Part shown: positions 29,305 through 64,000 of the stretch, piece by piece
How positions within the stretch are numbered: position 1 is the stretch's first letter
Layout of the letters: every line of letters begins with the position of its first letter
DNA from: Croceivirga radicis
GTDB lineage: Bacteria > Bacteroidota > Bacteroidia > Flavobacteriales > Flavobacteriaceae
DNA length: 64,000 bases
NCBI RefSeq assembly: GCF_002072105.2
Contig: NZ_MTBC01000004.1
Coordinates: 344,913 to 408,912 of the forward strand
Direction of reading: 5' to 3'
The notes under the pieces: generated by a model
Told to the model about the DNA's origin: nothing
The model's database searches: none
The model's input: the letters and a program-made list of their open reading frames with translations, nothing else
Program-made: the position numbers and the translations under genes

Positions 29305-29360
29305 ACTAGTTGTTTTTTCGTTAGTAATTTGAATGAGTCAGTTAATTTGAAGTTAACATC

Positions 29361-29414: not shown

Positions 29415-29511
29415 GAAGCCGAAAAGCTAAATGCGGCATTTTTGGACCACATTACGTTAACGTTTACATAACTTTTAGGTTATCACAATTGCCAAAAACC
29501 CCATTAAATAA

Positions 29512-29545
29512 AAAGCCGAATCAGTTATTAAACTGATTCGGCTTT
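29512..29545 (-). terminator. Terminator of the GH92-to-GH3 operon
   Basis: A 15-base perfect stem (29512-29526 with 29531-29545) around a 4-base loop, followed on the minus strand by a T-rich run. It lies 23 bases after the stop of the GH3 gene and isolates that operon from SusC. Confidence 0.92.
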
Positions 29546-29568
29546 CTGTTAATGTTTTATAATATTAA

Positions 29569-31953: not shown

Positions 31954-31955
31954 AA

Positions 31956-34286: not shown

Positions 34287-34310
34287 TGAAATTCGTTTGG
34301 TTCGGGCTTA

Positions 34311-36508: not shown

Positions 36509-36533
36509 ATGCTTTACCTGTCTCTTTTATAGC

Positions 36534-44045: not shown

Positions 44046-44759
44046 CTATGTTAACAAGTTGCCTTCGTCGTCCCATTGGGCGATGTCGTTTCGTTTACTC
44101 TGATCCACACATTTAGCAAGCCATTCTTCATCATAAGCTACGCCATGCTGGTCCAAAACATCTTGTGGAACACCATCCCAAACATTTGGCGAATTGCCTT
44201 TATAACCCAATTCTTCTATTCCTAATTTAGAGGTGTAAAATCCGGTCATGGTTAAATTACGGACCAGACTAAAAAAGTTTACGGCAAAGGGTCTTTCCAT
44301 TTGGGGTGTTTCTGGATCGTAATACGCTATTTCGTCTAAAATTTCTTTTTGTTGGTTTTCTTGTAAACTATCAAAGTTGGTATTAAACTGTGTATTGGCT
44401 TCGTGATCTAACCACATTAAACCACCCCTAAGGTCTAATTGCAAATCTGGAATATCTTTAGCCATAAATTCTATAAAGTCTACCACATTTGCATCCGAGG
44501 CACCTTTATAGGTTTCGCTAGAAGGTAAAATTAAATCGCAAAGCACCGTTAAGGTTTCTATTTCGTGCTTATTAAAGAATTGATCATCATGTAATTCTTG
44601 TACAAGTTCATTTTCGCTAGCGGTTCGCCATTTAACCATAGAACTCTCTACAACCTCTGGGGCAATTTCCGTATCCGTACCTGGTTTGCAACCATGCAAG
44701 GCCAATCCGCCGGCTACACCTCCAAAAACTATAGATTTTAAACTTTTTCTCCTATCCAT
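44046..44759 (-). CDS. Gluconate 2-dehydrogenase subunit 3 family protein
   Basis: Small (gamma) subunit of a membrane-side FAD sugar/polyol dehydrogenase; such subunits carry the Tat signal for the complex. The N-terminus MDRRKSLKSIVFGGVAGGLALHGC is a twin-arginine-like leader with a lipobox-like cysteine. The domain (about 60-180) has LCDLILPSSE and FMAKDIPDLQ, then AYDPETPQ-like loops. It is 3 bases downstream of the GMC oxidoreductase gene; the two form an operon with the terminator at 43959. Confidence 0.9.
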   Translation of the reverse strand: MDRRKSLKSIVFGGVAGGLALHGCKPGTDTEIAPEVVESSMVKWRTASENELVQELHDDQFFNKHEIETLTVLCDLILPSSETYKGASDANVVDFIEFMAKDIPDLQLDLRGGLMWLDHEANTQFNTNFDSLQENQQKEILDEIAYYDPETPQMERPFAVNFFSLVRNLTMTGFYTSKLGIEELGYKGNSPNVWDGVPQDVLDQHGVAYDEEWLAKCVDQSKRNDIAQWDDEGNLLT

Positions 44760-44762
44760 AAC

Positions 44763-46484
44763 TTAGAAGTTTTGCTTTTTAAATTGTTCTACAATATAAT
44801 CCGAAGCCCTCCAGGAGAGCGCCAGAATTGTCCATGTACAATTCTTGTCTGCTTGAGACACAAAAGGCCCTGCATCTACAATAAAAACATTGTCCACATC
44901 ATGCAACTGTTGGTATTTGTTGGTTACAGAAGTTTTGGGGTCATCTCCCATACGGGTGGTTCCAACCTCGTGTATAATACGTCCGGGAGCATGCAACCCA
45001 TAATCTACATCCTTACCGGGTTTTTCTCCCAGTAATTCCCCACCCATATTGGTCAAGATTTCTTCAAAAGTATCTTGCATGTGTTTGGCTTGGTTACGTT
45101 CCAGATCAGACCATTTGTAATTGAATTTTAAAACAGGAATACCCCATTCGTCCACTACGGTATCATCTATCTCGCAGTAGTTGTCCTTACGCGCAATAGA
45201 TTCGCCCCGGCCTGCCATACCTACTACGGCTCCATAATATTTTTTTACATCGCTTCTAAGTACATCGCCATAGCCCCCAACCTTAGTTCCAAAAAATTTG
45301 TTGAATTCGTTGGCGTTAAACCCAAATCCATAACTAGGCATACCCATACCACCCCAAACCTCTATGTGGTAACCTCTTGGAAAATCTAATTTAGAATTAT
45401 CTCCCCACCATGGAGAATAGACATGCATACCGCCAACCCCATCTTCATTGTAGGAAACCTTACGGTTCATCAAATCCGGGATAAAAGCAGCACGATCGGC
45501 ACCAGTAGAATCATGTAAATATTTGCCAACGTGATCACTGCTGTTACCTAAACCATTAGGATGTTGTTTGCTTTTAGAATTTAACAGAATTCGTGCAGAG
45601 CTACAGGCAGAAGCGCCCAATACCACTACTTTACCTTTTAGTTTATATTCTGTTCTGTCTTCTTTGTTAATGTAAGAAACTCCAGTAGCCTTACCTTCTT
45701 CATCTGTGGTAACGGTACGCACCACACAATTAACAAAAAGGTCTACCTGACCCCCATTTTTTTGAGCTGGAAATATTAAACAGGTACCGGCAGAAAAATC
45801 TGCATAAACTTGGCATGCCCTAGAACACTGCCCGCAGTAAAAGCAAACACCGCGCTCATTATTGATACGCTTGGTTAGCATGGACATTCTAGAAGGGTAA
45901 ACCGGTATATTGGTTTTACGGGCTCCTTTTATATAAAAAAGCTCATGTAATCTTGGTTTGGGCGGAGGTAAGAAAAAGCCATCTGGATCATTCCTAAGCC
46001 CTTCATTGGTACCAAATACACCAATTAATTTATCTACTTTATCATAGTACGGTTTTACATCTTCATAACCAATTGGCCAATCGTCCCCGTAACCATCTAT
46101 ACTTTTATGTTTAAAATCGTCTGGACCAAAGCGCAAAGAAATTCTACCCCAGTGATTGGTTCTACCTCCAAGCATATGAGATCTAAACCAATCAAATTTG
46201 GTGCCTTCTGCTCGCGTGTACGGTTCCCCTTCTATTTCCCATCCTCCATAAGCCGCATCAAAATCACCAAAGGGCCTTACGGTAGACGCCCCTCTTCTTG
46301 GGGACTCATAAGGCCATCTTAATTGGGTACGTTGTTCTGGGTCTGCAGGGTCAAAAAAGGGACCGGCTTCTACTACTGCTACTTTTAATCCAGCCTCGGA
46401 AAGCACTTTAGTGGCCATACCACCACCTGCTCCCGATCCTACTATGATTACATCATAGATAGTAGCATTCTCTTTTATTTGCAT
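44763..46484 (-). CDS. GMC-family FAD oxidoreductase with iron-sulfur-like cysteine cluster
   Basis: Catalytic subunit of a glucose/gluconate/sorbitol-type dehydrogenase, 573 residues. FAD-binding VIIVGSGAGGGMATKVLSE (13-30) with VVEAG; GGRTNHWGRIS; C-terminal GMC_oxred_C with HEVGTTRMG and VDAGPFVSQADKNCTWTI. Residues C214, C217, C220, C224 and C235 form a ferredoxin-like cluster (CFYCGQCSRAC), consistent with an Fe-S centre as in FAD glucose dehydrogenases. No cytochrome c subunit is nearby. Exported with the small subunit by the Tat system, presumably; it has no signal itself. Substrate unknown. Confidence 0.92.
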   Translation of the reverse strand: MQIKENATIYDVIIVGSGAGGGMATKVLSEAGLKVAVVEAGPFFDPADPEQRTQLRWPYESPRRGASTVRPFGDFDAAYGGWEIEGEPYTRAEGTKFDWFRSHMLGGRTNHWGRISLRFGPDDFKHKSIDGYGDDWPIGYEDVKPYYDKVDKLIGVFGTNEGLRNDPDGFFLPPPKPRLHELFYIKGARKTNIPVYPSRMSMLTKRINNERGVCFYCGQCSRACQVYADFSAGTCLIFPAQKNGGQVDLFVNCVVRTVTTDEEGKATGVSYINKEDRTEYKLKGKVVVLGASACSSARILLNSKSKQHPNGLGNSSDHVGKYLHDSTGADRAAFIPDLMNRKVSYNEDGVGGMHVYSPWWGDNSKLDFPRGYHIEVWGGMGMPSYGFGFNANEFNKFFGTKVGGYGDVLRSDVKKYYGAVVGMAGRGESIARKDNYCEIDDTVVDEWGIPVLKFNYKWSDLERNQAKHMQDTFEEILTNMGGELLGEKPGKDVDYGLHAPGRIIHEVGTTRMGDDPKTSVTNKYQQLHDVDNVFIVDAGPFVSQADKNCTWTILALSWRASDYIVEQFKKQNF

Positions 46485-50003: not shown

Positions 50004-51647
50004 TTATTCGTATCCTGGATTTTGGCTAATACTACCACCAGAATTATCTATTTCTGCCTGTGGAATAGGTCTTAGTAAGTGCTTTTGTTCCAGAGCACCA
50101 TTTAATGCCGCATGCGGATTGTTCGCTAAGGTTCTCTCTATTAACTTACCCGTACGTTTTAAATCCATCCACCTATTTGCTTCTCCAGCAAGTTCTCTTG
50201 CTCTTTCGTCCAAAATAAAGTCAAGGTCTACCTCCGCAGCAGTTACCGCTGTTGTTAATCCTGCTCTAGAACGCAATGTGGTTAATAAGGTTGCTGCGCT
50301 CGCAGCATCATTTAACTGTAAGTATGCTTCTGCCGCAATTAAGTATGCCTCACCAGAACGCATTACCACCATATCCCTTTCTCCTTGAGAAGACTGATCT
50401 GGTTGTGTAAAAGGAACGCCTGGATCATCAAACTTTTTAAACATTGGGTAATGTACTACGGTAACACCATTGTTCTCAAAATAAGTTCCTGGGTTAATTA
50501 CTTTATAGGGTACCGCATCCATTTCGGCCTGCGTCCATGCAACCTTAGGAAAATAAATTGCCGTATCGCCAGCCATTACATTAACGGTAATACCATTAGC
50601 GGTAGACTCAAAATCCTCATCTGCAAAGAGTACCCTGCGGAACGTAGCATCTGCACGTTCGTCATCATCTTCAAACAAAGAGTAGAAAAATTCTGTTGGC
50701 GCCGCACCTAGCCCTTTTTGATATTTATCGCCACGAATAAGACCCGGATAATCAAAATAACGGAATTTATACAGCATGTGCCTAGAATTACCCCAACCTC
50801 TACTTACAGAGTTAGTACCAAATAAATAGGAAAAAACAACTTCTGAGTTACGTTGATTTTCTTCGCTTACCAAAGATTCAAAAGAAGCTACCAATGGGTG
50901 ATTGGCAATAACCGTTTCTGAAAGACTTACAGCAGTCTGAAAATCAGAGGATGATCCAAATGATTTATATCCTCTTGTCAATAAAACCCTGGCCATAAAC
51001 TGCCTTACAGCATCTTTGGTTAACCTACCATACGTATCCGTAGTTTCTGGAAGATCTGCTAAAGCATCGTTCAAATCTAGAACAATTTGTGCATACACTT
51101 CTTCCTCTGAAGCTCTAGGATAATTAATCTCTGCGGTTGTTACCTGACTGGTAATTAGTGGAACACCACCGAAGTTTTCTACCAGTTTAAAGTAGGCCAA
51201 AGCTCTAAAAAATTTAGACTCTGCAACCCCGCTAGACAATTCTGTTTGTGGCACATCTTCTGCAATTGCCGCGGCCTCAATGGCCACATTAGCCGCTGCA
51301 ATTACCCTATATTGATTACCCCAATATACATCTACGGGCCAATTTCTACCAGTTAGATTAACATAATCGTTAATCTCATCTGTACCCGTTAAAGCCGTAC
51401 CCCTTGTGACGATATCCGTACCTAGATCTTCCAAAACATAATACATATCTCCAGTATATCTGGTAGTAGTTTCTCTAGCCCTTTCGTAAACAGAAGCTAC
51501 CAATTGGCCAAATATTGCTGGGTCTGTTGCTACGTTATCCAAACCTAGGGCCTCATTATTCTCTTCTTCCAAGTAATCTTCACAGCCAGTCATAAATAGT
51601 CCTAAGACCAATGAGGCAGCTACAATTTTATATCGATTTAATTTCAT
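50004..51647 (-). CDS. SusD/RagB-family outer membrane lipoprotein (second locus)
   Basis: Substrate-capture lipoprotein (547 residues), lipobox LFMTGC after MKLNRYKIVAASLVLG. SusD hallmarks: N-terminal EDYLEEENNEALG, TPR helices with FFRALAYFKLVENFGGVPLIT, YPRASEEEVYAQIVLDL, RSGEAYLIAAEAYLQLND and the C-terminal RPIPQAEIDNSGG. Twenty-one bases after the SusC gene; a terminator follows. It belongs to the inositol/GlcNAc locus through a shared operator, so an inositol-containing or GlcNAc-containing glycan is the probable ligand (inference). Confidence 0.95.
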   Translation of the reverse strand: MKLNRYKIVAASLVLGLFMTGCEDYLEEENNEALGLDNVATDPAIFGQLVASVYERARETTTRYTGDMYYVLEDLGTDIVTRGTALTGTDEINDYVNLTGRNWPVDVYWGNQYRVIAAANVAIEAAAIAEDVPQTELSSGVAESKFFRALAYFKLVENFGGVPLITSQVTTAEINYPRASEEEVYAQIVLDLNDALADLPETTDTYGRLTKDAVRQFMARVLLTRGYKSFGSSSDFQTAVSLSETVIANHPLVASFESLVSEENQRNSEVVFSYLFGTNSVSRGWGNSRHMLYKFRYFDYPGLIRGDKYQKGLGAAPTEFFYSLFEDDDERADATFRRVLFADEDFESTANGITVNVMAGDTAIYFPKVAWTQAEMDAVPYKVINPGTYFENNGVTVVHYPMFKKFDDPGVPFTQPDQSSQGERDMVVMRSGEAYLIAAEAYLQLNDAASAATLLTTLRSRAGLTTAVTAAEVDLDFILDERARELAGEANRWMDLKRTGKLIERTLANNPHAALNGALEQKHLLRPIPQAEIDNSGGSISQNPGYE

Positions 51648-51668
51648 TTTTTCAGTTTTATTCGTTTG

Positions 51669-54600
51669 TTAGAAACTTACGTTGATACCTGTTATAATTG
51701 AGCGCGATAAGAATGCCGCTCCCCAGTGGTTTCTACCAGCATTTTCTGGATCCCAACCATCATAATCCGTAAATATAAATGGATTCTGCGCAGTTACGTA
51801 AAATCTTAATTTGTCTAAACCTAAAGTATTCAATGCATTGTCCGGTAACTTGTAACCTAGGGTAATGAAACCTACTTTAGTAAATGAAATATCCCTATAC
51901 TTTATAGCATTTTGGAAGGTACCGCCGTTACCAGGTTGGTACCAGTTGTTCGTAGGATTCTCAGGGGTCCAATAATTTACGTTGTAACCGTTAAAAGTTC
52001 GGGTTGGTTCACTGTCCCATGGGAAAGAGAAAGCATTGTGAAAGTTACTCATCATACTATTTCCCTGACTTGTGCTAATTAAGAACGTAAAATCAAAATC
52101 TTTATAGTTCAACGTACTGGTAACACTACCCGTCCATTTAGGAACTACATTACCAATTATAGTTCTGTCACCATCTGGGGTAATCTGGCCATCTCCATTA
52201 ATGTCCCTTACTTTTACCTGTCCAGGTCTTTGGTTAAAAGTAGCCGCTTCGGCAGCTTCGTCTAATTGCCAAATACCTTCGTACTCATAGTCATATATAG
52301 AACCTATAGATTCTCCTACTCTATGAATAAGATTAGTACCGTTTACATTGAAAATAATCTCATCTAAATCGCCATACAATCTATCAAGGGTGTTTTTGTT
52401 TCTAGCAAAATTGAAATTGGTGGTCCACGTTAGGTTCTCATTATCAATATTTACCGTATTTAAACCAATTTCTATACCCTTGTTGGTAGACTCACCCACG
52501 TTATCAAATGTTCCAGAGAAACCGGTAACATCTGGTAATGGTGAAAAGAAAATAATATCTGAGTTTTTTCTGTTATACACATCTACAGAACCGTAAATAC
52601 GGTTTTGTAAAAATCCAAAATCTATACCTACGTTAACTTCCGTAGTACGCTCCCATGTTAGATCTTCATTAGCCAAACCACCTATGTAAGCCGTAGAAAC
52701 TGCTGCATCACCTAAATTGGTTGCACTAGAAGACAACAAAGATTGAGAAGCCAATGGTGCCAACCCGCCACCTTGACCATTATTACCGGTTTGCCCGTAG
52801 CTTAACCTAAGTTTGGCATTAGAAATTACATTTTGGTCTTTAAGGAAATTTTCTTCCATCATTTTCCAAGCAAAAGCTGCCGAAGGGAAAAATGCCCATT
52901 TGTTTTCATCAGACAAGATAGACGCACCATCATAACGGCCGGTTACCGTAAACAAATATTTGTTGTCTAAGGTATAGTTAATTCTACCCGTATAGGATTC
53001 AAGGGTTTGTTTAGAAAAACCACTAGACAGGTCCCTTATATCTAAACCAGCATCTAAGTTGTAAAATGAAAACTCATCTGTAGTAAAGTTTCTTACTTGA
53101 GAATAATACCCTTCTCTACGTTCTAAAAACCTAGAAACAACACCGGTTACATTTAAAGAGTGGATGTCTTTAGACCAGTTCCAGTTTAATATATTATCCC
53201 ATGTATATGAGAAATAATTGGTGTTATCTACTACCGCTCTCCTATTAGAAGGATTACCAGAAACACTTTTAGACAGTAACCCCCTATACTCACCATATCT
53301 TTGGTATTTAATATTTGGGGAGAATTTTGTGGTAAAACTTAATCCATTAACTGGGGTCAGTTTTAAAGAAATATCTCCCAAATATTGAAGAAAACGTGTT
53401 TCTCTTGTTATATTTTGCGTATCAAACAATGGGTTTGTAATCTGCGTTTCTTTTTGTGTAGGAAAAAATCGTAAACTACCATCTTCATTATAAGGTCTAC
53501 CAATTGGCTTTAATCGATAAGCACTTCTAAACGCCTCCCAGCTACCGGTATTTTGCACCACACTAGTTACATAATTGTTAACACTAACATTTAACCAATC
53601 TGTTAAATCACTAGAAAGGCTACCTCTAATATTATATCTATTGTAATCTTCGCCCTCTACGGTACCTTCATCTAATGTATACCCAAGACCTACTGCATAG
53701 GTAGTGTTTTCGTTACCACCACTCATATCTATGGTATGGTTGCTTTGCAAACCACTTTTCAACAATAAATCTACCCAATCCGTACTTACACCATCTGCTA
53801 CGTTTTGCTGTTCCTCACTATCTAAATAATTGGTTAAATCTACTTGGTCTCTTCTAAAACTTAAATCACCATTGGTTTGTGCAAACTCATTACCCACAAC
53901 AACATCCTTAAGAAACTCAATATAACCAGGACCGTCATAGACAGAAGGTAAATTGTATGCTTGTTTAAAACCAATGTAATTATTGTAGTTAACACGCATT
54001 TTACCTTGCTTACCTCTTTTAGTCTCTATAATAACCACCCCATTACTACCCCTAGAACCATAGATAGCCGTAGCAGAAGCATCTTTAAGAATATCCATTT
54101 TATCAATATCCGCAGGGTTTAAAAAGGAAATATCATCTACAAATATTCCATCTACGATAAACAATGGATTTTGTCCAGGATTAAAACCACCTTGATTTGC
54201 GGTCTGATTAGAATTAATGGTACTGGCACCACGAATACGAATGTTAAAACCACCTGCACCAGGTTTATTGTCCGTACGTTGAATAACAACACCAGGAGCC
54301 TGCCCTTGTAATGCAGAAACTGCATCTACCTTATTGGCCTGCTCTATTTGCTCACTACCCACAGAGGCAACAGAACCGGTTAGGTCTGCTCTTTTAACCT
54401 CGCCATAACCAATAACCACAACCTCGTCTAGTTTACTTACATCTTCTAGTAGTTGTACGTTAATTGTATTTTGACTGCCAACCGTAATATCTTTGGAACT
54501 AAATCCTATATAGGAATAGGTAAGTACAACTGCATCTCCAGAAACATTAATGGTATAATTACCATCAAAATCTGTTTGTGCCCCATTGTTAGTTCCTTTT

Positions 54601-54731
54601 TGGACAACAGTTGCACCAGGCAAGGGAGCACCCGTATCATCCGTAACCGTTCCGGAAATTGTACGGTCTTGCCCATAAGATAGCAGACAAGTACCAAACG
54701 CCAAGAGTAGCGTTAAAAATGATTTAAGCAT
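51669..54731 (-). CDS. SusC/RagA-type TonB-dependent transporter (second locus)
   Basis: Outer-membrane importer, 1020 residues: signal peptide ending LLSYGQ, carboxypeptidase-like domain (RTISGTVTDDTGAPLPGATV), plug with EVVVIGYGEVKRADLTG (TonB-box-like start), PLFIVDGIFVDD and ATAIYGSRGSNGVVIIETKRG, then the barrel ending FLSRSIITGINVSF. Stand-alone promoter region upstream holds the palindrome at 54795-54823. Pairs with the SusD gene 21 bases away. Confidence 0.96.
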   Translation of the reverse strand: MLKSFLTLLLAFGTCLLSYGQDRTISGTVTDDTGAPLPGATVVQKGTNNGAQTDFDGNYTINVSGDAVVLTYSYIGFSSKDITVGSQNTINVQLLEDVSKLDEVVVIGYGEVKRADLTGSVASVGSEQIEQANKVDAVSALQGQAPGVVIQRTDNKPGAGGFNIRIRGASTINSNQTANQGGFNPGQNPLFIVDGIFVDDISFLNPADIDKMDILKDASATAIYGSRGSNGVVIIETKRGKQGKMRVNYNNYIGFKQAYNLPSVYDGPGYIEFLKDVVVGNEFAQTNGDLSFRRDQVDLTNYLDSEEQQNVADGVSTDWVDLLLKSGLQSNHTIDMSGGNENTTYAVGLGYTLDEGTVEGEDYNRYNIRGSLSSDLTDWLNVSVNNYVTSVVQNTGSWEAFRSAYRLKPIGRPYNEDGSLRFFPTQKETQITNPLFDTQNITRETRFLQYLGDISLKLTPVNGLSFTTKFSPNIKYQRYGEYRGLLSKSVSGNPSNRRAVVDNTNYFSYTWDNILNWNWSKDIHSLNVTGVVSRFLERREGYYSQVRNFTTDEFSFYNLDAGLDIRDLSSGFSKQTLESYTGRINYTLDNKYLFTVTGRYDGASILSDENKWAFFPSAAFAWKMMEENFLKDQNVISNAKLRLSYGQTGNNGQGGGLAPLASQSLLSSSATNLGDAAVSTAYIGGLANEDLTWERTTEVNVGIDFGFLQNRIYGSVDVYNRKNSDIIFFSPLPDVTGFSGTFDNVGESTNKGIEIGLNTVNIDNENLTWTTNFNFARNKNTLDRLYGDLDEIIFNVNGTNLIHRVGESIGSIYDYEYEGIWQLDEAAEAATFNQRPGQVKVRDINGDGQITPDGDRTIIGNVVPKWTGSVTSTLNYKDFDFTFLISTSQGNSMMSNFHNAFSFPWDSEPTRTFNGYNVNYWTPENPTNNWYQPGNGGTFQNAIKYRDISFTKVGFITLGYKLPDNALNTLGLDKLRFYVTAQNPFIFTDYDGWDPENAGRNHWGAAFLSRSIITGINVSF

Positions 54732-54794
54732 AATTTATTGTTTAGTTAAATTTCAGTTATTGCATAAAATTAGGAGGGTACGGATGTTCTTACC

Positions 54795-54823
54795 ATGGAC
54801 GTATTTTTCAAATACATGGATAT
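54795..54823. promoter_or_regulatory. Inverted-repeat operator upstream of the second SusC gene
   Basis: The 29-base element has arms ACGTATTT (54799-54806) and AAATACAT (54810-54817) around TTC, flanked by ATGGA on both sides. It is 64 bases before the SusC start. It differs by one base from the copy at 59972-60000. Binding protein unknown; the locus HTCS is a candidate. Confidence 0.75.
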
Positions 54824-54962
54824 ATCTTCAATAGCTTATCATTACTGGGCTCACAGCCATATAAACCTCAAAAAAAAGCATTTATATTAATTAGAAGATT
54901 ACAAAATAAACGAGCTGTCCATACTTTTAGCCGCTAACTTCACGAAAACGATTTAGAAATAA

Positions 54963-54987
54963 AAAAAACGGGCCATGCCCGTTTTAA
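54963..54987 (-). terminator. Terminator of the MIOX-to-uxuA operon
   Basis: AAAACGGGC (54965-54973) and GCCCGTTTT (54977-54985) form a 9-base stem with a 3-base loop; on the minus strand TTTTTTTTATTT follows. It ends the leftward operon 30 bases after the uxuA stop. Confidence 0.9.
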
Positions 54988-55016
54988 TTTTGATTAACAA
55001 TCCTAATTTGTATTTG

Positions 55017-56198
55017 TTAATTACTTCGTTCTATACCTAACATTAACCCTCTAAGCTCTGCCAAACCCCTTAATCTACCAATTCCAGAATAACCTGGATT
55101 TGTTTGCTTCTTTAAATCGTCTAACATTTGGTGCCCATGATCTGGCCGCATTGGCATTTGGTGGTCTTGTCTCCCACTTTTTTTTCTTTTGGCTTGCTCA
55201 GCCAATAAGGCTTTCATTACAGCATACATATCTACATCTCCAGTCAAATGATCTGCTTCGAAAAAACTGCCCCATTGATCCCTTTTGGTACTCCTTAGGT
55301 GAACAAAATTTATTTTATCGCCCAAACGCTTCACCATTCCCTCTAAATCATTCTCAACAATTACTCCATAAGAACCGGTACAAAAACAGAGTCCGTTATT
55401 TGGACTATCTACTGCCGCCAACAGTTGCTGGGCATCTTTTTCTGTGCTCACCACCCTGGGTAATCCTAAAATTGGATACGGAGGATCATCGGGGTGTATT
55501 GCCATATTTACGCCATGTTCTTCGGCTACGGGAATAATTTCCTTTAGAAATTCATATAAGTTTTCCCTTAACTTTTTATCATCTACATGGGCATAACTAG
55601 TGAGTACTTCTTGAAATTGTTCTAAAGTATACCCTTCTTCTGCCCCTGGTAAACCAGCAATTATATTTTTGGTTAACGCTGCTATTGCTTCCTTGGTCAA
55701 GGAATTAAAAACCGTCTTTGCCCTAGTTACTTGCTCCTTGCTGTATACTGCTTCAGCATTTGGGCGTTTTAAGATAAAAAGTTCAAAAGCGGCAAATTGA
55801 TCCGCATCAAAACGTAAGGCCTTTGAACCATCTGGCATTTCAAAAGACAAATCTGTCCTAGTCCAGTCCAAAACAGGCATAAAATTGTAGCAAATGGTTT
55901 TTATACCACACGCTCCTAAATTTTTTATGGTCTCTAGGTAATTAGCAATGTAGGTTTGATAGGCACCAGTTCTCTTCTTGATATCTTCGTGTACAGGTAC
56001 ACTCTCCACAACAGACCATTGTAAGCCAGCCCTTTCGATTATCTTTTTACGTTCCAAAATGGCATTTTTGGACCATACTTCCCCATTTGGAATTTGATGT
56101 AAAGCGGTAACAATACCGGTTGCCCCTGCCATTTTTATATCTGATAAAGAGACCACATCATCTGGTCCATACCATCTCCAAGTTTCTTCTAAAGCCAT
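55017..56198 (-). CDS. uxuA: Mannonate dehydratase
   Basis: Dehydrates D-mannonate to 2-keto-3-deoxygluconate, the convergence step for glucuronate catabolism. The TIM-barrel UxuA sequence is clear: [52 protein letters not shown] (split), [21 protein letters not shown] with metal ligands, CFCTGSYG and FVHLRSTKR. Length 393 is normal. Last gene of the four-gene leftward operon (9 bases after the acetyltransferase-like gene). With the inositol oxygenase upstream it gives two steps of inositol to KDG; the isomerase UxaC and reductase UxuB are not in the window. Confidence 0.97.
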
Positions 56199-56207
56199 TC
56201 TAGCTAT

Positions 56208-57344
56208 TTAAATTTTTATGTAAATTTTCTTTTTGTGAAGCCATAAACCAACGAACCAACACAACAACATAAACAAAACCCCAGTAATTAAGGCACCAAA
56301 AGCACCCGGAAAAATCTGTTGTACTATGGCTTCGCTAAACCACTCAAACGCATCATGATTTTTGGTTACTGGTATAAGTCGTAAAGTGATGAAAAACAAT
56401 TCAGAAAATAAATAAATGAAAAGTGGGTTTTTACCAAAGACATCAAAAAAGTATACACCAAATCTTACTTTTTTTATTTCTATTGCATAAACCAGAGTGG
56501 CCATAATAAATAAATCTAACCCAATAGTATGTAAGGCAAAACTACTGGTCCATAATTTTTTAGAAATAGGAAAAATAAGGTTCCACCATTGACCTAACGT
56601 GTAAATCAAAAAACCAGCTACCATTAAAACGGCTATTGATTTAAAAGTGTTGCCGTTTTTTTTAAGATAAACACCCGCAAAATAACCACCTAATACATTT
56701 ACAATAGATGGTAATGTACTTAACAACCCTTCTGGATCAAAGGGCACACTGTCTTTTTTGTAAACATGCCCTTCTCCTAAAAGAAATAAATCTAGTCTTG
56801 TAATTGCATTACTGCCCATTTCCAATACGCCCCCGTTGCCATCAAACCAATACAAAAGACACCAATATAACAGTAAAATAAGTGCTGAAATTAGGGCAAC
56901 AAGTTTACTGTTTAAATGATAGATTAAGACAGAAGCAAAAAAATAACATAAGGCTATACGCTGTAAAACCCCCATAATACGGGTTTCTGCAACAGGTTTT
57001 AAAGAGAAATCTTGCGCTGACCATTCAAAAAACGGGAACCAATACATTAGATATCCTAAAAGGAAAATAATGAGGGTTCTTCTAACTACTTTCTTATAAA
57101 ATTTAGATGCTGGAGTAGTTTTTAGTTTTGCCATAGAAAAGCTCATGGCATTACCCATAGCAAATAAAAATGAAGGAAACACCAAATCTGCCAAGGTAAA
57201 ACCAAACCAGTTTGCATGTGACAAATAGGGGTAAATATCTGCTCCCGTACCTGGTGAGTTTACCAAAATCATTAAACATATGGTTAAGCCCCTAAATACA
57301 TCTAAGGCCAAAAACCGGTTTGTTTTGTTTATACTGGTAGACAT
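56208..57344 (-). CDS. Heparan-alpha-glucosaminide N-acetyltransferase-like membrane protein (DUF5009)
   Basis: Polytopic inner-membrane protein (378 residues, about 10 helices) of the HGSNAT_cat/DUF5009 group. The N-terminal block ALDVFRGLTICLMILVNSPG, then LSHANWFGFTLADLVFPSFLFAMG, aligns with human HGSNAT, including H43, equivalent to its active-site histidine. HGSNAT passes acetyl from cytosolic acetyl-CoA to terminal alpha-glucosamine on the far side of the membrane. If that holds here, it would acetylate a periplasmic alpha-GlcN so GH89 can cut it. Bacterial homologues are mostly uncharacterised, so the acceptor is an inference. Nine bases after the symporter gene. Confidence 0.82.
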   Translation of the reverse strand: MSTSINKTNRFLALDVFRGLTICLMILVNSPGTGADIYPYLSHANWFGFTLADLVFPSFLFAMGNAMSFSMAKLKTTPASKFYKKVVRRTLIIFLLGYLMYWFPFFEWSAQDFSLKPVAETRIMGVLQRIALCYFFASVLIYHLNSKLVALISALILLLYWCLLYWFDGNGGVLEMGSNAITRLDLFLLGEGHVYKKDSVPFDPEGLLSTLPSIVNVLGGYFAGVYLKKNGNTFKSIAVLMVAGFLIYTLGQWWNLIFPISKKLWTSSFALHTIGLDLFIMATLVYAIEIKKVRFGVYFFDVFGKNPLFIYLFSELFFITLRLIPVTKNHDAFEWFSEAIVQQIFPGAFGALITGVLFMLLCWFVGLWLHKKKIYIKI

Positions 57345-57353
57345 ATTCTGATT

Positions 57354-58934
57354 TTAAAGTTGACCCATAAAAATGTAAATAACTAAGGTAATGGCACATA
57401 GCACCAACCCCATTGGTTTGGCATACCGCCACGTTTCTAACTTCTCTTGGGTACTTTCTGGCATATCGTCAGTATTGTTTACTCTTGGATACAGATAAGA
57501 AACTCCAAACATGATAACGAGGTTCAATACAAATTCTATTCCCCATAAATGAACAAAATGGATACCCGTATCAAAAACAAAAGTGGTTAGGATGTAGAAC
57601 AAAAGACCCACAAATAACGCCACTTTTGCGCCCATTGCAGATATGTTTTTTAAGAAAAACCCCGCCAATAAAATAGAGGCAATGGGAATAAAAAAGATAC
57701 CGTTTAATTGCTGCAATAACTGGTACAAGCCATCTGGCGCATTGGCTACAAAAGGCGCAACAAATATTGAAAATACAGCTAAGATAATAGATGTGGTTTT
57801 ACCTACACGTACCAATTTTGCATCGCTACTAGATTTGTCTATATGCTTTTTAAAAATATCTACAGAGAATATGGTAGCAGCGCTATTAAGTACACTATTA
57901 AAAGTACTTAATACCGCCCCTAGAACTACAGCTGCAAAAATACCCACCAGACCTACTGGTAACACCCGCTTTATTAATTCAGGATAAATCATATCCTGTT
58001 CTGCATACATACTATCCCCTAGATAATAAAAAGCGATGACGCCGGGCAAAATAATAACTATAGGAATTATGATTTTGAGCACCCCTGTATACAGAAGACC
58101 TTTTTGCGCTTCTTTCAAGTTTTTTGCACCCAATGCACGCTGTATTATTGTTTGGTTCATACCCCAGAAATACAACTGGTTAATCATTAAGCCCGTAAAA
58201 AGGACTTCAAAAGGTAAAACGGAATCTTTGTCACCTATTACATTAAATTTATCAGGGCTATTTTCATATACTTTTTGTAGGCCTTGCAATGGGTTTCCGT
58301 CTCCAATGGCCAATAAAGCGAAAATAGGGATAGCAGCACCACCTATTAACAGACCATACCCATTAATGGTGTCTGATATTGCAACTGCTTTTAACCCTCC
58401 TAAAATTGCATAAAGTGCACCTAAACTACCAATTACCACAACGGTTACCCATAGGCTCTCTTGCTTCGGTAATTGTAACACTTCAGAAACATTAAATATG
58501 CTCTCAAGGTTTATTGCGCCTGTATAAAGTACAATGGGCAAAATAGTAACCACAAAAGAAACCATTAGAAAAAAGGCTACCATGGTTCTTGTGGTACCAT
58601 CAAAACGTCTTTCAAGATATTCTGGAATGGTGGTCAAGCCCATTTTTAAATACTTGGGTATAAAATAAAGTGCCGCTATTACCAAAGCTATGGCAGAAGT
58701 TACCTCCCACGCTATGATGATAAACCCGTTCTTGTAAGAGGAACCATTCATGCCTATTAAATGTTCCGTAGAAATATTGGTCAATAGCATGGAACCGGCA
58801 ATGACCACTCCTGTTAGACTTTTACCTCCTAAAAAATAGCCATCTTTAGTCTTTAAAGACTCCTTTCTAAGTTTAAACCAACTAAAAAATGCAACAAATA
58901 AAGTAAAGGCAAGAAATGAAAGTAATGTATACAT
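57354..58934 (-). CDS. Sodium:solute symporter (SSS family), candidate inositol/sugar importer
   Basis: Inner-membrane sodium-coupled transporter of the SSS/SLC5 family, about 13 helices in 526 residues from ATG 58934; an upstream TTG seven codons earlier is possible. Features: DGYFLGGKSLTGVVIAGSMLLTNIS with the sodium-site start, STEHLIGMNGSSY, YLERRFDG, LGGLKAVAISDTINGYGLLIGG and NSVLNSAATIFSVDIF. The family includes SMIT inositol and SGLT sugar carriers; the neighbouring inositol oxygenase makes inositol a plausible load, not shown by sequence. Second gene of its operon. Confidence 0.93.
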   Translation of the reverse strand: MYTLLSFLAFTLFVAFFSWFKLRKESLKTKDGYFLGGKSLTGVVIAGSMLLTNISTEHLIGMNGSSYKNGFIIIAWEVTSAIALVIAALYFIPKYLKMGLTTIPEYLERRFDGTTRTMVAFFLMVSFVVTILPIVLYTGAINLESIFNVSEVLQLPKQESLWVTVVVIGSLGALYAILGGLKAVAISDTINGYGLLIGGAAIPIFALLAIGDGNPLQGLQKVYENSPDKFNVIGDKDSVLPFEVLFTGLMINQLYFWGMNQTIIQRALGAKNLKEAQKGLLYTGVLKIIIPIVIILPGVIAFYYLGDSMYAEQDMIYPELIKRVLPVGLVGIFAAVVLGAVLSTFNSVLNSAATIFSVDIFKKHIDKSSSDAKLVRVGKTTSIILAVFSIFVAPFVANAPDGLYQLLQQLNGIFFIPIASILLAGFFLKNISAMGAKVALFVGLLFYILTTFVFDTGIHFVHLWGIEFVLNLVIMFGVSYLYPRVNNTDDMPESTQEKLETWRYAKPMGLVLCAITLVIYIFMGQL

Positions 58935-59028
58935 AATATCTTTACAATTAGACAAGTAACCCCCTTTCTAAATCCATTATTGATTTAGAATGAAGGTTTT
59001 ACAACGTTAAAATGTGATTGTTTACTTT

Positions 59029-59901
59029 CTAAAATTTAATCTTTTCAGGTAAATATTTAGCAGCCAATTCTTTGTAATACGGCATCAAGGCAGCCACATC
59101 TGGCTTTACCGGTGCTTTAGTATACAAATCGTACGGATTAAATTTCTTTACCCACTCAAACATCTCTTGATCCTTTTGATTCATTAAATGGGTGTATGCA
59201 TTTTCCTTATGTTGCGCATAAAAAGAATGATATCTTATTATATACAATGCTGGTTCTGGCAGGTAATCTTTCATTACATGGTATAGATACTCATCATGCC
59301 CCCAGCTCATTTTTACCTTATCCAAGCCGCAATTGGCTTCGTAAACACCGTATTTTGTATTGAATTTATCGTTGGTGGTATCAGGATTTAGTTGAAAAAA
59401 CTCTGGATACACTATATTTTCAGAAAAAGCACACCCAACTGGATAAGTATCCCCTACTACTGCCCATTGTGGCTCTCCAAACAAGCATAGTATTTTACCT
59501 AAATCATGTAAAAACCCAGTAAGTACAAACCAGTCTGGATGTCCGTCCGCGCGGATGGCTTCAGACGTTTGCAACAAATGTTGGGTTTGGTCTAAATCTA
59601 TATCTGGATCACTATCATCTACAAGCGTATTTAAAAACTCTACCGCCTCCCAGACACTCATTTCCCGTTTTTGTAGTTTTAAAAATTCTTCTTCTTTCTT
59701 GCAGACAAAATCATATGTTTGGTACGTATGGTTTTCCTTATAAAATTCCCTAACAATAGCTACCCTATCAGAATCCACATAATTTCTAAATTCCTCTTTT
59801 TCCTTTACCGGTTCATCTGGATTAGGATATCTTCTTTTTAAATCATCCTCCCAATCGTCCTCAATACTCAATAAATTTTTATGGTTCTTTAGGTCTTTCA
59901 T
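59029..59901 (-). CDS. Myo-inositol oxygenase (MIOX)
   Basis: Di-iron HD-domain oxygenase converting myo-inositol plus O2 to D-glucuronate. All six metal ligands of the animal enzyme are present: H108, H132-D133 (GFLHDLGKI), H202 (WGHDEY), H225 (IRYHSFY) and D258 (NPYDLYTK). Length 290 fits eukaryotic and bacterial MIOX; N-terminal FRNYVDSDRVAIVREFY and the loop PVGCAFSENIVYPEFFQ are typical. First gene of the operon MIOX-symporter-acetyltransferase-like-uxuA; the palindromic operator is 71 bases upstream. MIOX is uncommon in bacteria outside Bacteroidota and a few others. Confidence 0.95.
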   Translation of the reverse strand: MKDLKNHKNLLSIEDDWEDDLKRRYPNPDEPVKEKEEFRNYVDSDRVAIVREFYKENHTYQTYDFVCKKEEEFLKLQKREMSVWEAVEFLNTLVDDSDPDIDLDQTQHLLQTSEAIRADGHPDWFVLTGFLHDLGKILCLFGEPQWAVVGDTYPVGCAFSENIVYPEFFQLNPDTTNDKFNTKYGVYEANCGLDKVKMSWGHDEYLYHVMKDYLPEPALYIIRYHSFYAQHKENAYTHLMNQKDQEMFEWVKKFNPYDLYTKAPVKPDVAALMPYYKELAAKYLPEKIKF

Positions 59902-59971
59902 AGATTGTCAATTTAAATTTTAGTCGTTATCAGTTGCAATGCTCAAGATACACCTTGCCATTATGTTAAGA

Positions 59972-60000
59972 ATGGATGTATTTTTCAAATACATGGATAT
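59972..60000. promoter_or_regulatory. Perfect inverted-repeat operator between MIOX and GH89 genes
   Basis: Arms ATGTATTT (59976-59983) and AAATACAT (59987-59994), a perfect 8+8 inverted repeat around TTC, with flanking ATGGA copies. It lies 71 bases upstream of MIOX and 165 bases upstream of the divergent GH89 gene, and matches 28 of 29 bases of the element at 54795. Confidence 0.8.
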
Positions 60001-60164
60001 TTAAGGCTTGTTTATTTAAATATAGATAAAAATAAACCTAAAACCATATAGCACAGATAGTTAAAAAATAGTTTTAAGTACTACTAATTTCAATCTATAA
60101 AATCATCTATATACTTGATTTATTTTTACATGGCTACTTTTATACAATGTAGTTTCTTTATTCT

Positions 60165-62303
60165 ATGAAAAACCGTACTTCTAATTTCACCTGCTTAATT
60201 CTCATTGCCATAACCTTGTTAATGAATGCATGTACCACTAAAACTAAAGTACCTGTATCTCCTGAACAAGACGTTTTAGTGCAACTTTTGGGCAAAAGAG
60301 CTAATGAATTTGTTTTAACCTTAGATACCCTTTCTACTACTAAAGGTGATTATTTTGAAGTAGATGCCAAGCCAAAGGAAGTACGTATTAAAGCTTCTTC
60401 TAAAATTGCCCTTACCTACGGAGCTTATTATTATTTAAAACAAATTGGAGCGGCATTCAATAGCTGGGAGGGTACTGCTTTGGATTTACCCGCAAAATGG
60501 CCCCAAAAAAAACTTAGAAAGCAAACACCTTTTGAGTTTAGAAAATACTTGAATGTGGTTACTTATGGTTACACCACACCGTGGTGGGATTGGGAAAGAT
60601 GGAACCAGGAAATTAACTGGATGGCCCTACATGGTATAAATATGCCCACGGCTATGGAAGGGCAGGAATATATCTGGCAAAAATTATGGAAAGAGTATGG
60701 CGTAACACAAGCCGAACTGGACAAACATTTTACCGGCCCTGCTTTTTTACCTTGGCAGCGTATGGGCAATATAAACGGACATGCAGGACCTATACCCCAA
60801 GAATGGATTACTAAAAAAGCCAAACTACAGAAAAAGATTCTGTCAAAAATGCGTGATTTGGGAATGAAACCAGTGGTGCCGGCCTTTAGCGGTTACATAC
60901 CTGCTGCTTTGGCCGAGAAATTTCCGAATGCGAAAATTAGTGAACTTAACGGTTGGTCTGGAGGCGGATTTGATAGCACCTATTTATTAGACCCTAAAGA
61001 CCCATTGTTTAAAGAAATTGGTAAGCGTTTTATAGAACTATATAATCAAGAATACGGCAAGGCCGAATATTATTTGGCAGATAGTTTTAATGAGGTTACA
61101 CCACCTGTTAGTACAGAAAATAAGCTAGATGAATTAGCCGCCTATGGCCAAGTAATTTATGAAACCTTGAACGAAGCCGCTCCTGGTGCCACGTGGGTAA
61201 TGCAAGGTTGGTTATTTGGACATGATGCCGACTTCTGGGAAAAAGACGCCGTTATTGCCTTTTTAAGTAAAGTACCCAACGACAAGTTGATAATCCAAGA
61301 CTTTGGAAACGATAGATACAAAGTTTGGGAAAAACAAGATGCATTTTATGGCAAGCAATGGACGTATGGTTATGTACATAACTACGGCGGCTCTAATCCT
61401 ATTTATGGTGATTTTGATTTTTACAAAGAAGAAATTAATTATTTGCTAGAGCATGATAAGAGCACTAAAGTTTTAGGTTATGGTGTAATGCCAGAAGGTT
61501 TACACCAGAACTCTATGGTTTATGAGTATTTATACGATTTACCTTGGGATAGCAAAATACCCGTTAAAGATTGGCTAAAAACTAACGTTAAAGCTAGGTA
61601 TGGCAAAGATTTTACTAAAGAAACGCTAACCGCCTGGATAAAGTTAGATAGTGCGGTTTATAGCACTAAATATTGGACACCTCGTTGGTGGAACGATCAA
61701 GCAGGAGCTTATTTACTCTTTAAACAACCATCTAAAGAAATAACAGCCTTTAAGGGGCATCCTACCAATCTTAAATTGCTTGAAGAAGCGAATCTTTTGC
61801 TTGAAAAAAATAAAGAAAACAACCCGCTGATACAAGAGGATTTTATAGCACACAAAAGGCACGAACTTTCTCTAAAAATAGATACCCTACTACAACAAGC
61901 TACGTACGCCTACATAAATAACGATTTTGAAAAAGGAGACAGTTTACAGTTACAATTCCATACTTTAATAGACAGCACGGAACAATTATTAGAAAATAGC
62001 AAACTAGACCGTTTGGATTATTGGGTGCAAGAAGCCACAAATTATGGGGACACCCCGGAAACTAAAGCATTTTATAATAAAAACGCACGTTTATTAATTA
62101 ACCAGTGGGGCGGTGTTGGTAATTTAAATAATTATGCCTCCAGAGCTTGGAAAGATCAATACCAATTACTCTATAAATTAAGATGGGATATTTTTTTGGG
62201 TTCTCTTAGAGCCAATTCAGAATTAGGCGGTGAATTAAACCAAGAAAGAATAGAGCAAAACATCAAGGAATGGGATGAATTATGGTTAGACTATCCGCAT
62301 TGA
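60165..62303 (+). CDS. Alpha-N-acetylglucosaminidase lipoprotein, GH89 (NAGLU family)
   Basis: Removes terminal alpha-linked GlcNAc (retaining, like human lysosomal NAGLU). Lipobox MNAC, Cys23, so it is membrane-anchored. The NAGLU N-domain (about 33-115) precedes the barrel, with VVTYGYTTPWWDWERWNQEINW split, GINMPTAMEGQEYIWQKLW, PFLP-type FTGPAFLPWQRMGNINGH, E310 in YLADSFNEVTPP and E444 in VMPEGLHQNS as likely catalytic glutamates, and a helical C-domain. Length 712 is typical. Diverges from the MIOX operon with the operator between them. Confidence 0.96.
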   Translation: MKNRTSNFTCLILIAITLLMNACTTKTKVPVSPEQDVLVQLLGKRANEFVLTLDTLSTTKGDYFEVDAKPKEVRIKASSKIALTYGAYYYLKQIGAAFNSWEGTALDLPAKWPQKKLRKQTPFEFRKYLNVVTYGYTTPWWDWERWNQEINWMALHGINMPTAMEGQEYIWQKLWKEYGVTQAELDKHFTGPAFLPWQRMGNINGHAGPIPQEWITKKAKLQKKILSKMRDLGMKPVVPAFSGYIPAALAEKFPNAKISELNGWSGGGFDSTYLLDPKDPLFKEIGKRFIELYNQEYGKAEYYLADSFNEVTPPVSTENKLDELAAYGQVIYETLNEAAPGATWVMQGWLFGHDADFWEKDAVIAFLSKVPNDKLIIQDFGNDRYKVWEKQDAFYGKQWTYGYVHNYGGSNPIYGDFDFYKEEINYLLEHDKSTKVLGYGVMPEGLHQNSMVYEYLYDLPWDSKIPVKDWLKTNVKARYGKDFTKETLTAWIKLDSAVYSTKYWTPRWWNDQAGAYLLFKQPSKEITAFKGHPTNLKLLEEANLLLEKNKENNPLIQEDFIAHKRHELSLKIDTLLQQATYAYINNDFEKGDSLQLQFHTLIDSTEQLLENSKLDRLDYWVQEATNYGDTPETKAFYNKNARLLINQWGGVGNLNNYASRAWKDQYQLLYKLRWDIFLGSLRANSELGGELNQERIEQNIKEWDELWLDYPH

Positions 62304-62306
62304 TTT

Positions 62307-64000
62307 TTAGTTCAATAATTTACTAGGTGGAAATCCAAATTGCTTTTTAAAACATCTACTAAAATATAGAGGATCTTTAAAGCCTGTAGTATATGCAACT
62401 TCAGAAACATTGTACTTTCTAGATTTTAGTAATTGGGCGGACTTTTTAAGCCTAACCGTACGGATAAACTCATTGGGAGACAAATCTGTAAGCTCCTTAA
62501 TTTTTCTGTATAACTTAGAAGAACTTACTCCCATTTCTTTACATAGATAGGTAGTAGTTAGTTCAGAATTGCCCATTTGATCCATAATGATTTGGGTTAC
62601 TTTCTGCATAAACTCTTCATCTATGGGCGAATGTGTTAGCAAACTTACTTCGCTCTCTACCTCTTCAGAAAATTTAGCTTTTAGCTCTAATCTATTCTTT
62701 ATCATGTTGTCTACAACAGTTCGCAACAGAGCCGGTTCAAAAGGTTTTACAATGTACCCATCTGCACCTGCTCCGTAGCCCTTTACTTTATCTTCATTTT
62801 CAGATAAAGCTGTTAATAGAATTACGGGTATATGGCTTATCTCTTCGTCTTGTTTTAATGCTTTACAAAATTCAATTCCGGTCATTACAGGCATCATTAC
62901 GTCTGCAATACAAAGTATTGGCTTTATTTTTTTACATAGATTTAAACCTTCTTCTCCATTTTCTGCCATATACACCTTATAGAAATCAGATAGGTAATCT
63001 ACCAAGTACTTACGTAGCTCTACATTATCTTCTACAACCAGTATTTTTTGCTTTACTTGGGTGTTATTTTGGGCTTTTTTAGCTGTTATTTCTAGAACTT
63101 CAATTGGCCTATCCTGTTTAGCAGTTACTACATATTCAAAAACTTCATCCTCTGTATAACTATCCCTACCTATAGGCAATTCTACCACAAAAGAACTACC
63201 CTTGCCCAATGCACTATTTACGGTAATGTCTCCTTTATGTAACCCAATTAATGATTTTACCAAGGATAACCCAATTCCAGAGCCGGTATTGTAATCTTTA
63301 TTGTTGGTAGCTTGATAAAAACGACTAAATATTTTATCTAAACTTTTGGCAGGTATACCAATACCATCATCAGAAATTTCTACTACCAGAATATTCTTGT
63401 TGTTCTCCTTGGTACGTAAGAACAAATCTACCGTTCCATATGCCTCGGTAAATTTTAGCGCATTGGATAATAGGTTATATACGATTTTATCGTACTTATC
63501 AGAATCTATCCAGCCCTTAATTTCTTCTTCCTCTACTATAAAATTATAGGTGATGTTCTTTTTAAAAGCAAGTTCTTTAAAAGATTCAAATATGTGCTTG
63601 GTATACAGGACAACATCTGTTTGTGCCACTTTAAGTTTTAGTTCACCGGTCTGGGCTTTTCTAAAATCTAAAACCTGATTTACCAAGTTTAGGAGCCTAC
63701 TGGCATTTTGATAAATTAAATTATACCTACTTTTTTGGTATTCGGTTGCCCCTTCATTATGTTCCAATAGCTGTTTGGACGGACCTAAAATTAAGGTCAA
63801 CGGTGTACGTAATTCGTGCGAAATGTTGGTAAAAAAACGTAGCTTTTCGTTGTTGAGTTTTACATCATGTTCCCGGTTCACCTTTTCGGTAAGCAAATCT
63901 GCCTTTAGCTTACTTCTGTGCTTTAATTCCCTTCTAATCAAAAAAGTAGCAATTGCTATAATTGCCAGCAATAAGGCCAGTGCTTGCGGGGTTAACCAGA
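62307..64000 (-). CDS. Hybrid two-component system regulator (HTCS), N-terminus beyond window
   Basis: Single-chain sensor kinase/response regulator typical of Bacteroidota glycan loci. Visible, in order: the end of a transmembrane helix (LALLLAIIAIATFLI), HisKA with FFTNISHELRTPLTLILGP, HATPase with NLLSNALKFTEA and DDGIGIPAKSLDKIF, a receiver domain (ILVVEDNVELRKYL, CIADVMMPVMTG) and a C-terminal AraC-type helix-turn-helix (LSPNEFIRTVRLKKSAQLL, DPLYFSRCFKKQFGFPPSKLL). The frame stays open to base 64000, so the periplasmic sensor lies outside. It ends 4 bases after the GH89 gene, convergent, and probably controls this locus. Confidence 0.94.
   Translation of the reverse strand, partial: WLTPQALALLLAIIAIATFLIRRELKHRSKLKADLLTEKVNREHDVKLNNEKLRFFTNISHELRTPLTLILGPSKQLLEHNEGATEYQKSRYNLIYQNASRLLNLVNQVLDFRKAQTGELKLKVAQTDVVLYTKHIFESFKELAFKKNITYNFIVEEEEIKGWIDSDKYDKIVYNLLSNALKFTEAYGTVDLFLRTKENNKNILVVEISDDGIGIPAKSLDKIFSRFYQATNNKDYNTGSGIGLSLVKSLIGLHKGDITVNSALGKGSSFVVELPIGRDSYTEDEVFEYVVTAKQDRPIEVLEITAKKAQNNTQVKQKILVVEDNVELRKYLVDYLSDFYKVYMAENGEEGLNLCKKIKPILCIADVMMPVMTGIEFCKALKQDEEISHIPVILLTALSENEDKVKGYGAGADGYIVKPFEPALLRTVVDNMIKNRLELKAKFSEEVESEVSLLTHSPIDEEFMQKVTQIIMDQMGNSELTTTYLCKEMGVSSSKLYRKIKELTDLSPNEFIRTVRLKKSAQLLKSRKYNVSEVAYTTGFKDPLYFSRCFKKQFGFPPSKLLN

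Follow-up and report, generated by a model that had tools for sequence, protein, structure and literature searches.

A candidate co-regulated locus for use of the glycan head of glycosyl inositol phosphoceramides in Croceivirga radicis

Glycosyl inositol phosphoceramides (GIPCs), the main sphingolipids of plants, are termed major sphingolipids on Earth (PMC11907402, excerpt) and are described as predominating among the lipids of the outer plasma-membrane leaflet in plants (PMC7980081, excerpt). Their head contains glucuronic acid (GlcA) alpha-1,2-linked to inositol, with alpha-D-mannose (Man) on O-4 of the GlcA in cabbage (PMC12498067, excerpt), and glucosamine (GlcN) or N-acetylglucosamine (GlcNAc) on the GlcA in rice, where GlcN is predicted to come from deacetylation (PMC9113257, excerpt). 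The window analysed here, a stretch of 64,000 nucleotides from Croceivirga radicis (Flavobacteriaceae; assembly GCF_002072105.2, contig NZ_MTBC01000004.1, positions 344,913 to 408,912 of the forward strand), ends in what is probably a co-regulated locus for this glycan head or for an algal equivalent of it. A sequence-only reading of the window had proposed an inositol-glycan locus directed at GIPCs or at glycosylphosphatidylinositol (GPI) anchors, which is supported by an adjoining GH115 gene, a shared operator and conservation among relatives, all of this support being genomic.

The described systems closest to this locus each match it in part. Lysosomal trimming of heparan sulfate proceeds by transmembrane N-acetylation of alpha-GlcN by HGSNAT, followed by the GH89 enzyme NAGLU; both steps have counterparts here with key residues kept, whereas no sulfatase or beta-glucuronidase occurs among the genes scanned, and the steps that would follow are those of an alpha-glucuronidase (GH115) and an inositol oxygenase. 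SusCD utilisation loci with a hybrid two-component system regulator (HTCS) share SusC, SusD, the HTCS and several glycosidases, but here the predicted substrate is a glycolipid head and myo-inositol oxygenase (MIOX) is added, as is a phosphatidylinositol-specific phospholipase C (PI-PLC) in relatives. Bacterial iol operons also catabolise inositol but use inositol dehydrogenase, whereas here MIOX would feed glucuronate to UxaC and UxuA. The NagX glucosamine pathway has the same family and proposed chemistry, converting periplasmic GlcN to GlcNAc, but it deals with free GlcN, often in chitin operons (PMC9007349, excerpt), whereas the NagX homologue here accompanies GH89 and GH115. Plant GIPC breakdown is known from a phospholipase C of Botrytis cinerea, but that enzyme is fungal and sphingomyelinase-type and releases phosphorylated heads (PMC11496612, excerpt). 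Searches of open-licence PMC listings yielded no bacterial GIPC locus and no MIOX-bearing utilisation locus; the families are known, and their combination, the predicted substrate and the putative operator were not met in the papers searched.

Open reading frames and family searches placed all eight genes named by the sequence-only reading where it had put them:

50004..51647, reverse strand: SusD-like glycan-binding lipoprotein (Pfam SusD_RagB and SusD-like_3)
51669..54731, reverse strand: SusC-like TonB-dependent transporter (TIGR04056, 825 bits)
55017..56198, reverse strand: mannonate dehydratase UxuA, of the glucuronate arm (TIGR00695 equivalog, 596 bits against a cut-off of 199.55)
56208..57344, reverse strand: predicted HGSNAT/NagX-like transmembrane glucosamine N-acetyltransferase (matches to NCBIfam NagX and HGSNAT 8jkv)
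57354..58955, reverse strand: sodium/solute (SSS) symporter (PF00474, PRK10484 family)
59029..59901, reverse strand: MIOX, inositol to glucuronate (PF05153, E 1.1e-109)
60165..62303, forward strand: GH89 alpha-N-acetylglucosaminidase (PF05089, PF12971 and PF12972, all three NAGLU domains)
62307..64000, reverse strand: window part of the HTCS (1353 aa), which extends from 62307 to 66368 in window numbering

SusC and SusD are adjacent with a gap of 21 bp, an arrangement expected of a SusCD utilisation locus. The HTCS is present as had been read, but its gene exceeds the window and starts at 66368. The solute of the SSS symporter is probably inositol. All six iron ligands attributed to MIOX by the sequence-only reading align with structure 2huo. 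Both NAGLU catalytic glutamates (E316 and E446) are conserved in GH89 (alignment to 4xwh, E 9.5e-105), the N-terminus of which resembles a lipoprotein signal by eye. The GlcN(Ac) bond in the GIPC head is alpha, and the GH89 mechanism requires an N-acetyl group, which would give the acetyltransferase a role. The latter is a clear homologue of HGSNAT, as claimed, but scores under the curated cut-off of NCBIfam NagX (NF046061; 174.4 against 480 bits), and is labelled NagX/HGSNAT-like for this reason; it is also below the Pfam DUF5009 cut-off (20.4 against 25). Its His43 aligns with His297 of HGSNAT (8jkv, E 6.8e-22), the acetyl-carrying histidine (PMC9007349, excerpt).

The HGSNAT and NAGLU homologues lie 4 kb apart in the window and side by side in relatives, as would suit a heparan-type locus acting on GlcN and GlcA in the manner of the lysosomal pathway. 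This is very improbable: the absence of heparan sulfatases and lyases noted by the sequence-only reading extends to sulfatases, lyases and GH88 among all locus genes scanned, GlcA in heparan is beta-linked whereas GH115 acts on alpha-GlcA, and MIOX and PI-PLC would have no place in such a pathway.

An alpha-glucuronidase had been predicted to lie outside the window, and a GH115 gene was found just beyond its end, 48 bp upstream of the HTCS, with two further glycosidase genes after it (window numbering):

66417-69389, reverse strand: GH115 (PF15979, E 2.6e-127, and GH115_C)
69393-70916, reverse strand: GH28 (PF00295), scoring under all five NCBIfam cut-offs matched
70948-73269, reverse strand: GH92 (PF07971; TIGR01180 above cut-off)

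The HTCS, GH115, GH28 and GH92 genes share one strand with gaps of 48, 3 and 31 bp, and GH115 belongs to the next transcription unit. By family it is a predicted alpha-1,2-glucuronidase; since such enzymes act on alpha-1,2-linked GlcA, which is present in GIPC (PMC12498067, excerpt) and is not known from GPI, the former fits better than the latter. UxaC, which the sequence-only reading had proposed to look for, lies on another contig of the same genome.

The evidence for co-regulation is an exact 23-bp stretch common to the region upstream of SusC and the MIOX/GH89 intergenic region. After full 29-mer matches had been seen in relatives (in genomes that overlap partly with the 80 loci counted below), the operator was reduced to its fixed letters, ATGGAY-N8-CAAA-N3-ATGGAY, a direct repeat spaced 21 bp apart and 27 bp long. 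Three copies accompany the locus:

54795..54821, forward strand: copy 1, perfect, 63 bp from the SusC start (ATGGAC-N8-CAAA-N3-ATGGAT)
59972..59998, forward strand: copy 2, perfect, between the divergent MIOX and GH89 genes
73369-73395 in window numbering (C15:418281-418307): copy 3, one mismatch, upstream of GH92-GH28-GH115

The whole 3.6-Mb genome contains two perfect copies, both in the locus, and two one-mismatch copies, one of them before GH92-GH28-GH115. The other is outside the locus (G000:C1:171856-171882, L261) and may be due to chance. Sites with two mismatches occur at chance level in this genome (18 sites in all, against 26 for the reversed pattern), and for this reason only sites with no or one mismatch were used there.

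Beyond GH92 and in the same direction, a unit of UnbV/ASPIC, PAP2, UnbV/ASPIC, SusD and SusC genes (C15:418340 onward; L003:9541-19901 and L004:1-1296; window 73428 onward) adjoins the locus and stands outside the operator set. It was considered as PAP2 resembled a possible pathway phosphatase, but was not counted as part of the locus: its SusC has no operator site in front of it, even with two mismatches allowed, and the unit was not seen in the mapped cassettes of relatives.

The operator recurs in other genomes. Among the best 80 of 533 MIOX relatives, taken with 10-kb flanks that often cut the locus short (1,615,362 bp), it was present in 72 loci as 71 perfect and 11 one-mismatch copies, every one of these 82 sites being intergenic. 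It was found neither in one Markov shuffle of each of the 80 loci nor in 22 control stretches (431,814 bp) comprising loci of a second MIOX type, PI-PLC-only loci and GH89 elsewhere. In larger stretches of relatives, copies with no or one mismatch precede SusC, MIOX or UxuA. G054 and G111 have such copies before GH89, SusC and MIOX alike, GH89 and MIOX being separated there by about 30 kb; a perfect site of G054 also falls within an unrelated open reading frame. The sensor half of most full-length cassette HTCSs is 50-60% identical to that of the window, falling to 40% in G041 and G130, which bear GH125, and to 22-27% in three unrelated HTCSs. These patterns suggest that the glycosidases and the transporter are under common control as one regulon and that the HTCS may bind the 27-bp repeat.

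Genes within 10 kb of MIOX in the same 80 loci were the SSS symporter (78), an orthologous HTCS (56), a metallophosphoesterase (53), a NagX homologue (49), GH28 (49), PI-PLC-C1 (10) and cassette GH115 (9), gene labels in relatives being best BLAST matches to a panel with a Pfam check on representatives. Nine of the loci also carry a fusion of a NagB-like protein (GlcN-6-P isomerase) with PIG-L (GlcNAc-PI de-N-acetylase), for example L048:12455-14383, L054, L161, L177 and L223; the fusion is near GH89 in G054, G111 and G125.

Wider sampling covered 199 genomes of the family from 198 genera, the genome of the window included, with a cassette defined as cassette-type MIOX, or SusC/SusD and an HTCS orthologous to those of the window, within about 35 kb. 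Cassette-type MIOX (E < 1e-107) is present in 16 genomes, again counting that of the window, and a second type (E 1e-93 to 1e-98; 22 genes) is the sole type in 21 more, G180 holding both; these counts omit G052 and G023, with weak partial matches above the cut-off, and all matches below it. In 12 of these 16 genomes the 25 kb on either side of cassette-type MIOX include a member of the GH115 family (8 with a full GH115, 4 with a distant type only), as against none of the 22 second-type genes. Counterparts in the cassettes of relatives are 56-69% identical to SusD in some and 23-40% in others, and 61-71% or 28-43% identical to SusC.

Five second-type loci that were mapped consist of MIOX and SSS without cassette partners, and G119 and G120 have cassette-type MIOX with few partners, as might be expected of a mere free-inositol and glucuronate operon beside unrelated sugar genes. 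That explanation is scarcely credible for the window, given a perfect operator common to the susC and MIOX/GH89 promoters and its presence in 72 of the 80 loci. One second-type MIOX, L151 (G005:C3:86117-86866), contains two in-frame TGA codons; a PI-PLC is located 7 kb away from it.

The pairing of acetyltransferase and GH89 is itself a trait of the cassettes. GH89 occurs as 18 copies in 15 of the 199 genomes; a NagX homologue lies within 32 kb of it in all eight cassettes, that of the window included and with a distant homologue in G111, and within 35 kb on the same contig of none of the 10 GH89 genes outside cassettes (Fisher p 2.3e-5). The NagX query was broad at E 1e-20, matching in 97 genomes, and the count of none in 10 used all those matches; close orthologues (at least 57% identity) are confined to ten genomes, that of the window among them. 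In quick trees with approximate likelihood ratio (SH-aLRT) support only, the cassette GH89s, nine with L052, fall into two clades (SH-aLRT 100 each) kept apart by starred branches, which implies either two or more separate entries of GH89 into the cassette or its replacement. The NagX tree (17 of 59 rows) was weakly resolved and not used.

Cassette GH115s form a single clade of 18 distinct rows against 22 other GH115s (SH-aLRT 100), of 60 GH115 matches in all, with two duplicates and the distant GH115 type omitted; 15 of the 22 others belong to genomes in which a cassette is likewise present. The GH115 family is familiar from xylan, and BtGH115A is reported to be active on arabinogalactan and inactive on xylan (PMC13059095, PMC9063842, excerpts), an activity that PMC9063842 itself calls unusual (excerpt). 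With the wall-type families GH28, GH2, GH43 and GH51, this could point to a locus for glucuronoxylan or for arabinogalactan proteins, free-inositol catabolism being adjacent by chance or for a shared glucuronate flux. Such a locus is improbable given the separate GH115 clade, a scan of the locus genes that showed neither a xylanase nor a galactanase, the association with PI-PLC, the operator common to MIOX and susC, and the beta linkage of GlcA in arabinogalactan (PMC9063842, excerpt).

Gene order in the relatives shows which parts of the cassette vary. G195 has metallophosphoesterase-GH115-PI-PLC-NagX-GH89-GH92-GH2-GH28-GH28-GH92-SusD-SusC, with MIOX-SSS and an HTCS, and G099 has HTCS-metallophosphoesterase-GH115-NagX-GH89-GH92-GH2-GH92-SusD-SusC with UxuA-MIOX-SSS. 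The order is SusC-SusD-GH92-GH89-NagX-GH115-HTCS in G085, which has no MIOX over the cut-off, and HTCS-GH115-NagX-GH89-GH2-GH28-GH92-SusD-SusC in G101, which has no MIOX. G041, G129 and G130 have metallophosphoesterase-GH115-GH125-GH92-GH28-GH92-SusD-SusC beside MIOX-SSS, without NagX and GH89 (GH125 by Pfam in G041, and a gene of equal length and place in the other two), and the cassettes of G041 and G129 include PI-PLC. G176, G172, G196, G002 and G180 have no GH89 in the genome and no NagX in the mapped stretch. These gene orders suggest a variable part for the outer sugar (NagX and GH89 for GlcN, GH92 or GH125 for Man) on a steadier core of GH115, phosphoesterase and MIOX. Three cassette-linked proteins lack a Pfam match (L016:6037-9693, 1218 aa; L019:1852-3648, 598 aa; L067:1697-2272, 191 aa).

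The alpha-mannosidases GH92 and GH125, NagX with GH89, PI-PLC and MIOX would all fit use of the GPI-anchor glycan (Man3-GlcN-inositol-P-lipid), whether it comes from arabinogalactan proteins of plants or from other eukaryotes. GPI is not known to contain alpha-GlcA, yet the cassettes share one clade of GH115, which adjoins NagX in G099, G085 and G101 and is one gene apart from it in G195, making this substrate decidedly improbable.

The same machinery might instead serve another inositol lipid, of algal, fungal or bacterial origin, with alpha-Man, alpha-GlcN or an alpha-uronate on inositol. This is unlikely, though several features agree with it: carriers include Wenyingzhuangia, Maribacter and Algibacter, genera known as marine; GH92 is the most widely retained glycosidase of the window set, at 59-65% identity in the cassettes of 14 mapped relatives and in G160; and fungal inositol phosphoceramides bear Man on inositol (PMC11907402, excerpt). 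GH115 and GH89 together indicate alpha-GlcA and alpha-GlcNAc, many carriers are Flavobacterium with names suggesting roots or soil, and the GlcA-bearing inositol phosphoceramide is called plant-specific (PMC9113257, excerpt), all of which argues for the land-plant GIPC head.

Candidates for cleavage of the lipid are found in the cassettes of relatives, where PI-PLC and metallophosphoesterase genes lie beside GH115. Strong PI-PLC-C1 matches (E < 1e-100) occur in 17 of the 199 genomes, namely in 11 of the 16 with cassette-type MIOX against 6 of the 183 others (Fisher p 1.3e-10, tree ignored); in 8 of the 16 the distance to MIOX is no more than 21 kb. The count omits G063 and G165, with weak partial matches above the cut-off, and G105 below it. 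A second PI-PLC-C1 group (L154, L155, L157, L163, L164, L165, L166 and L167), 46-62% identical to that of the cassettes, adjoins SusC and a SusD-sized gene and sometimes a metallophosphoesterase, and the 20 kb covered in each case include neither MIOX nor GH115; these are candidate phosphatidylinositol utilisation loci.

On the GIPC-head reading, for which substrate, order of steps, cell compartment and sensor ligand are proposed from genomic support, SusC and SusD would import the inositol glycan, either bare or still bearing phosphate or lipid. Once it is in the periplasm, the NagX/HGSNAT-like membrane enzyme would acetylate terminal alpha-GlcN using cytosolic acetyl-CoA and GH89 would release the resulting alpha-GlcNAc, with GH92 removing alpha-Man where this is the outer sugar, before GH115 cleaves GlcA-alpha-1,2-inositol. 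PI-PLC uses the 2-OH of inositol, which is blocked by GlcA in GIPC, so that GH115 would act before PI-PLC. In relatives, PI-PLC and/or the metallophosphoesterase would then free inositol from phosphate and lipid, whereas C. radicis may import heads that others have set free. Inositol would enter through the SSS symporter and be converted by MIOX to glucuronate, merging with GH115-derived GlcA in the UxaC-UxuA route, while the HTCS would sense an inositol-glycan fragment and act through the 27-bp direct repeat.

Several observations weigh against a GIPC head as the substrate. The lipid-cleaving enzyme expected outside the window has candidates in the cassettes of relatives, but in the genome of C. 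radicis PI-PLC-C1 (PF16670) had no match, one control genome being positive, and the cassette metallophosphoesterase had none in a search without a positive control; lipid cleavage would then fall to another enzyme, or the strain would live on heads already freed. Neutral ceramidase (PF04734) had no match in this genome, nor was any control genome positive, so that this negative carries no weight. Among solved GH115s the nearest is the arabinogalactan-linked BtGH115A. GH28 cannot be given a clear part in use of the head, and GH2, GH43, GH51 and GH95 in relatives are unneeded for a simple head. GH115 is absent near cassette-type MIOX in four of 16 genomes (G111, G119, G120 and G125), MIOX is missing from the otherwise good cassettes of G085 and G101, and in G119 and G120 it has few other locus genes around it. 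Seven of 21 mapped stretches lack the operator (up to two mismatches), including that of G125 with MIOX, GH89 and NagX, and G129, G130, G180 and G085 have only sites with two mismatches. The sampled loci are akin by descent, so that counts are not independent, and the Fisher values ignore the tree.

It is nonetheless moderately likely that a pathway dedicated to the GIPC head is spread through Flavobacteriaceae and occurs in another version in Xanthocytophaga (L052), in most cases with an operator of its own. In it, N-acetylation of GlcN by a membrane enzyme would allow GH89 to act, as in lysosomal heparan trimming, the GH89 having been replaced or acquired on two or more occasions; a GH115 of a separate clade would cut GlcA from inositol, and MIOX would convert the inositol to further glucuronate. 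The locus offers a testable order of enzymes, a bacterial parallel to HGSNAT and NAGLU, and a candidate for a new specificity of GH115, towards inositol glycosides, which may bear on the natural substrate of BtGH115A; its operator is usable to find more members of the regulon in root, soil and marine bacteria.

Two other features of the window were recorded. A utilisation locus at window 19791-38792 contains GH29, an UnbV/FG-GAP protein, SusD/SusC, GH3, GH20, GHL10, CBM9 and GH92, and possibly acts on N-glycans. At window 44046-46484 lies a GMC oxidoreductase whose partner resembles gluconate 2-dehydrogenase subunit 3; a GMC protein encoded near MIOX in Flagellimonas flava (L025) shares 89% identity with it over the part that matched.

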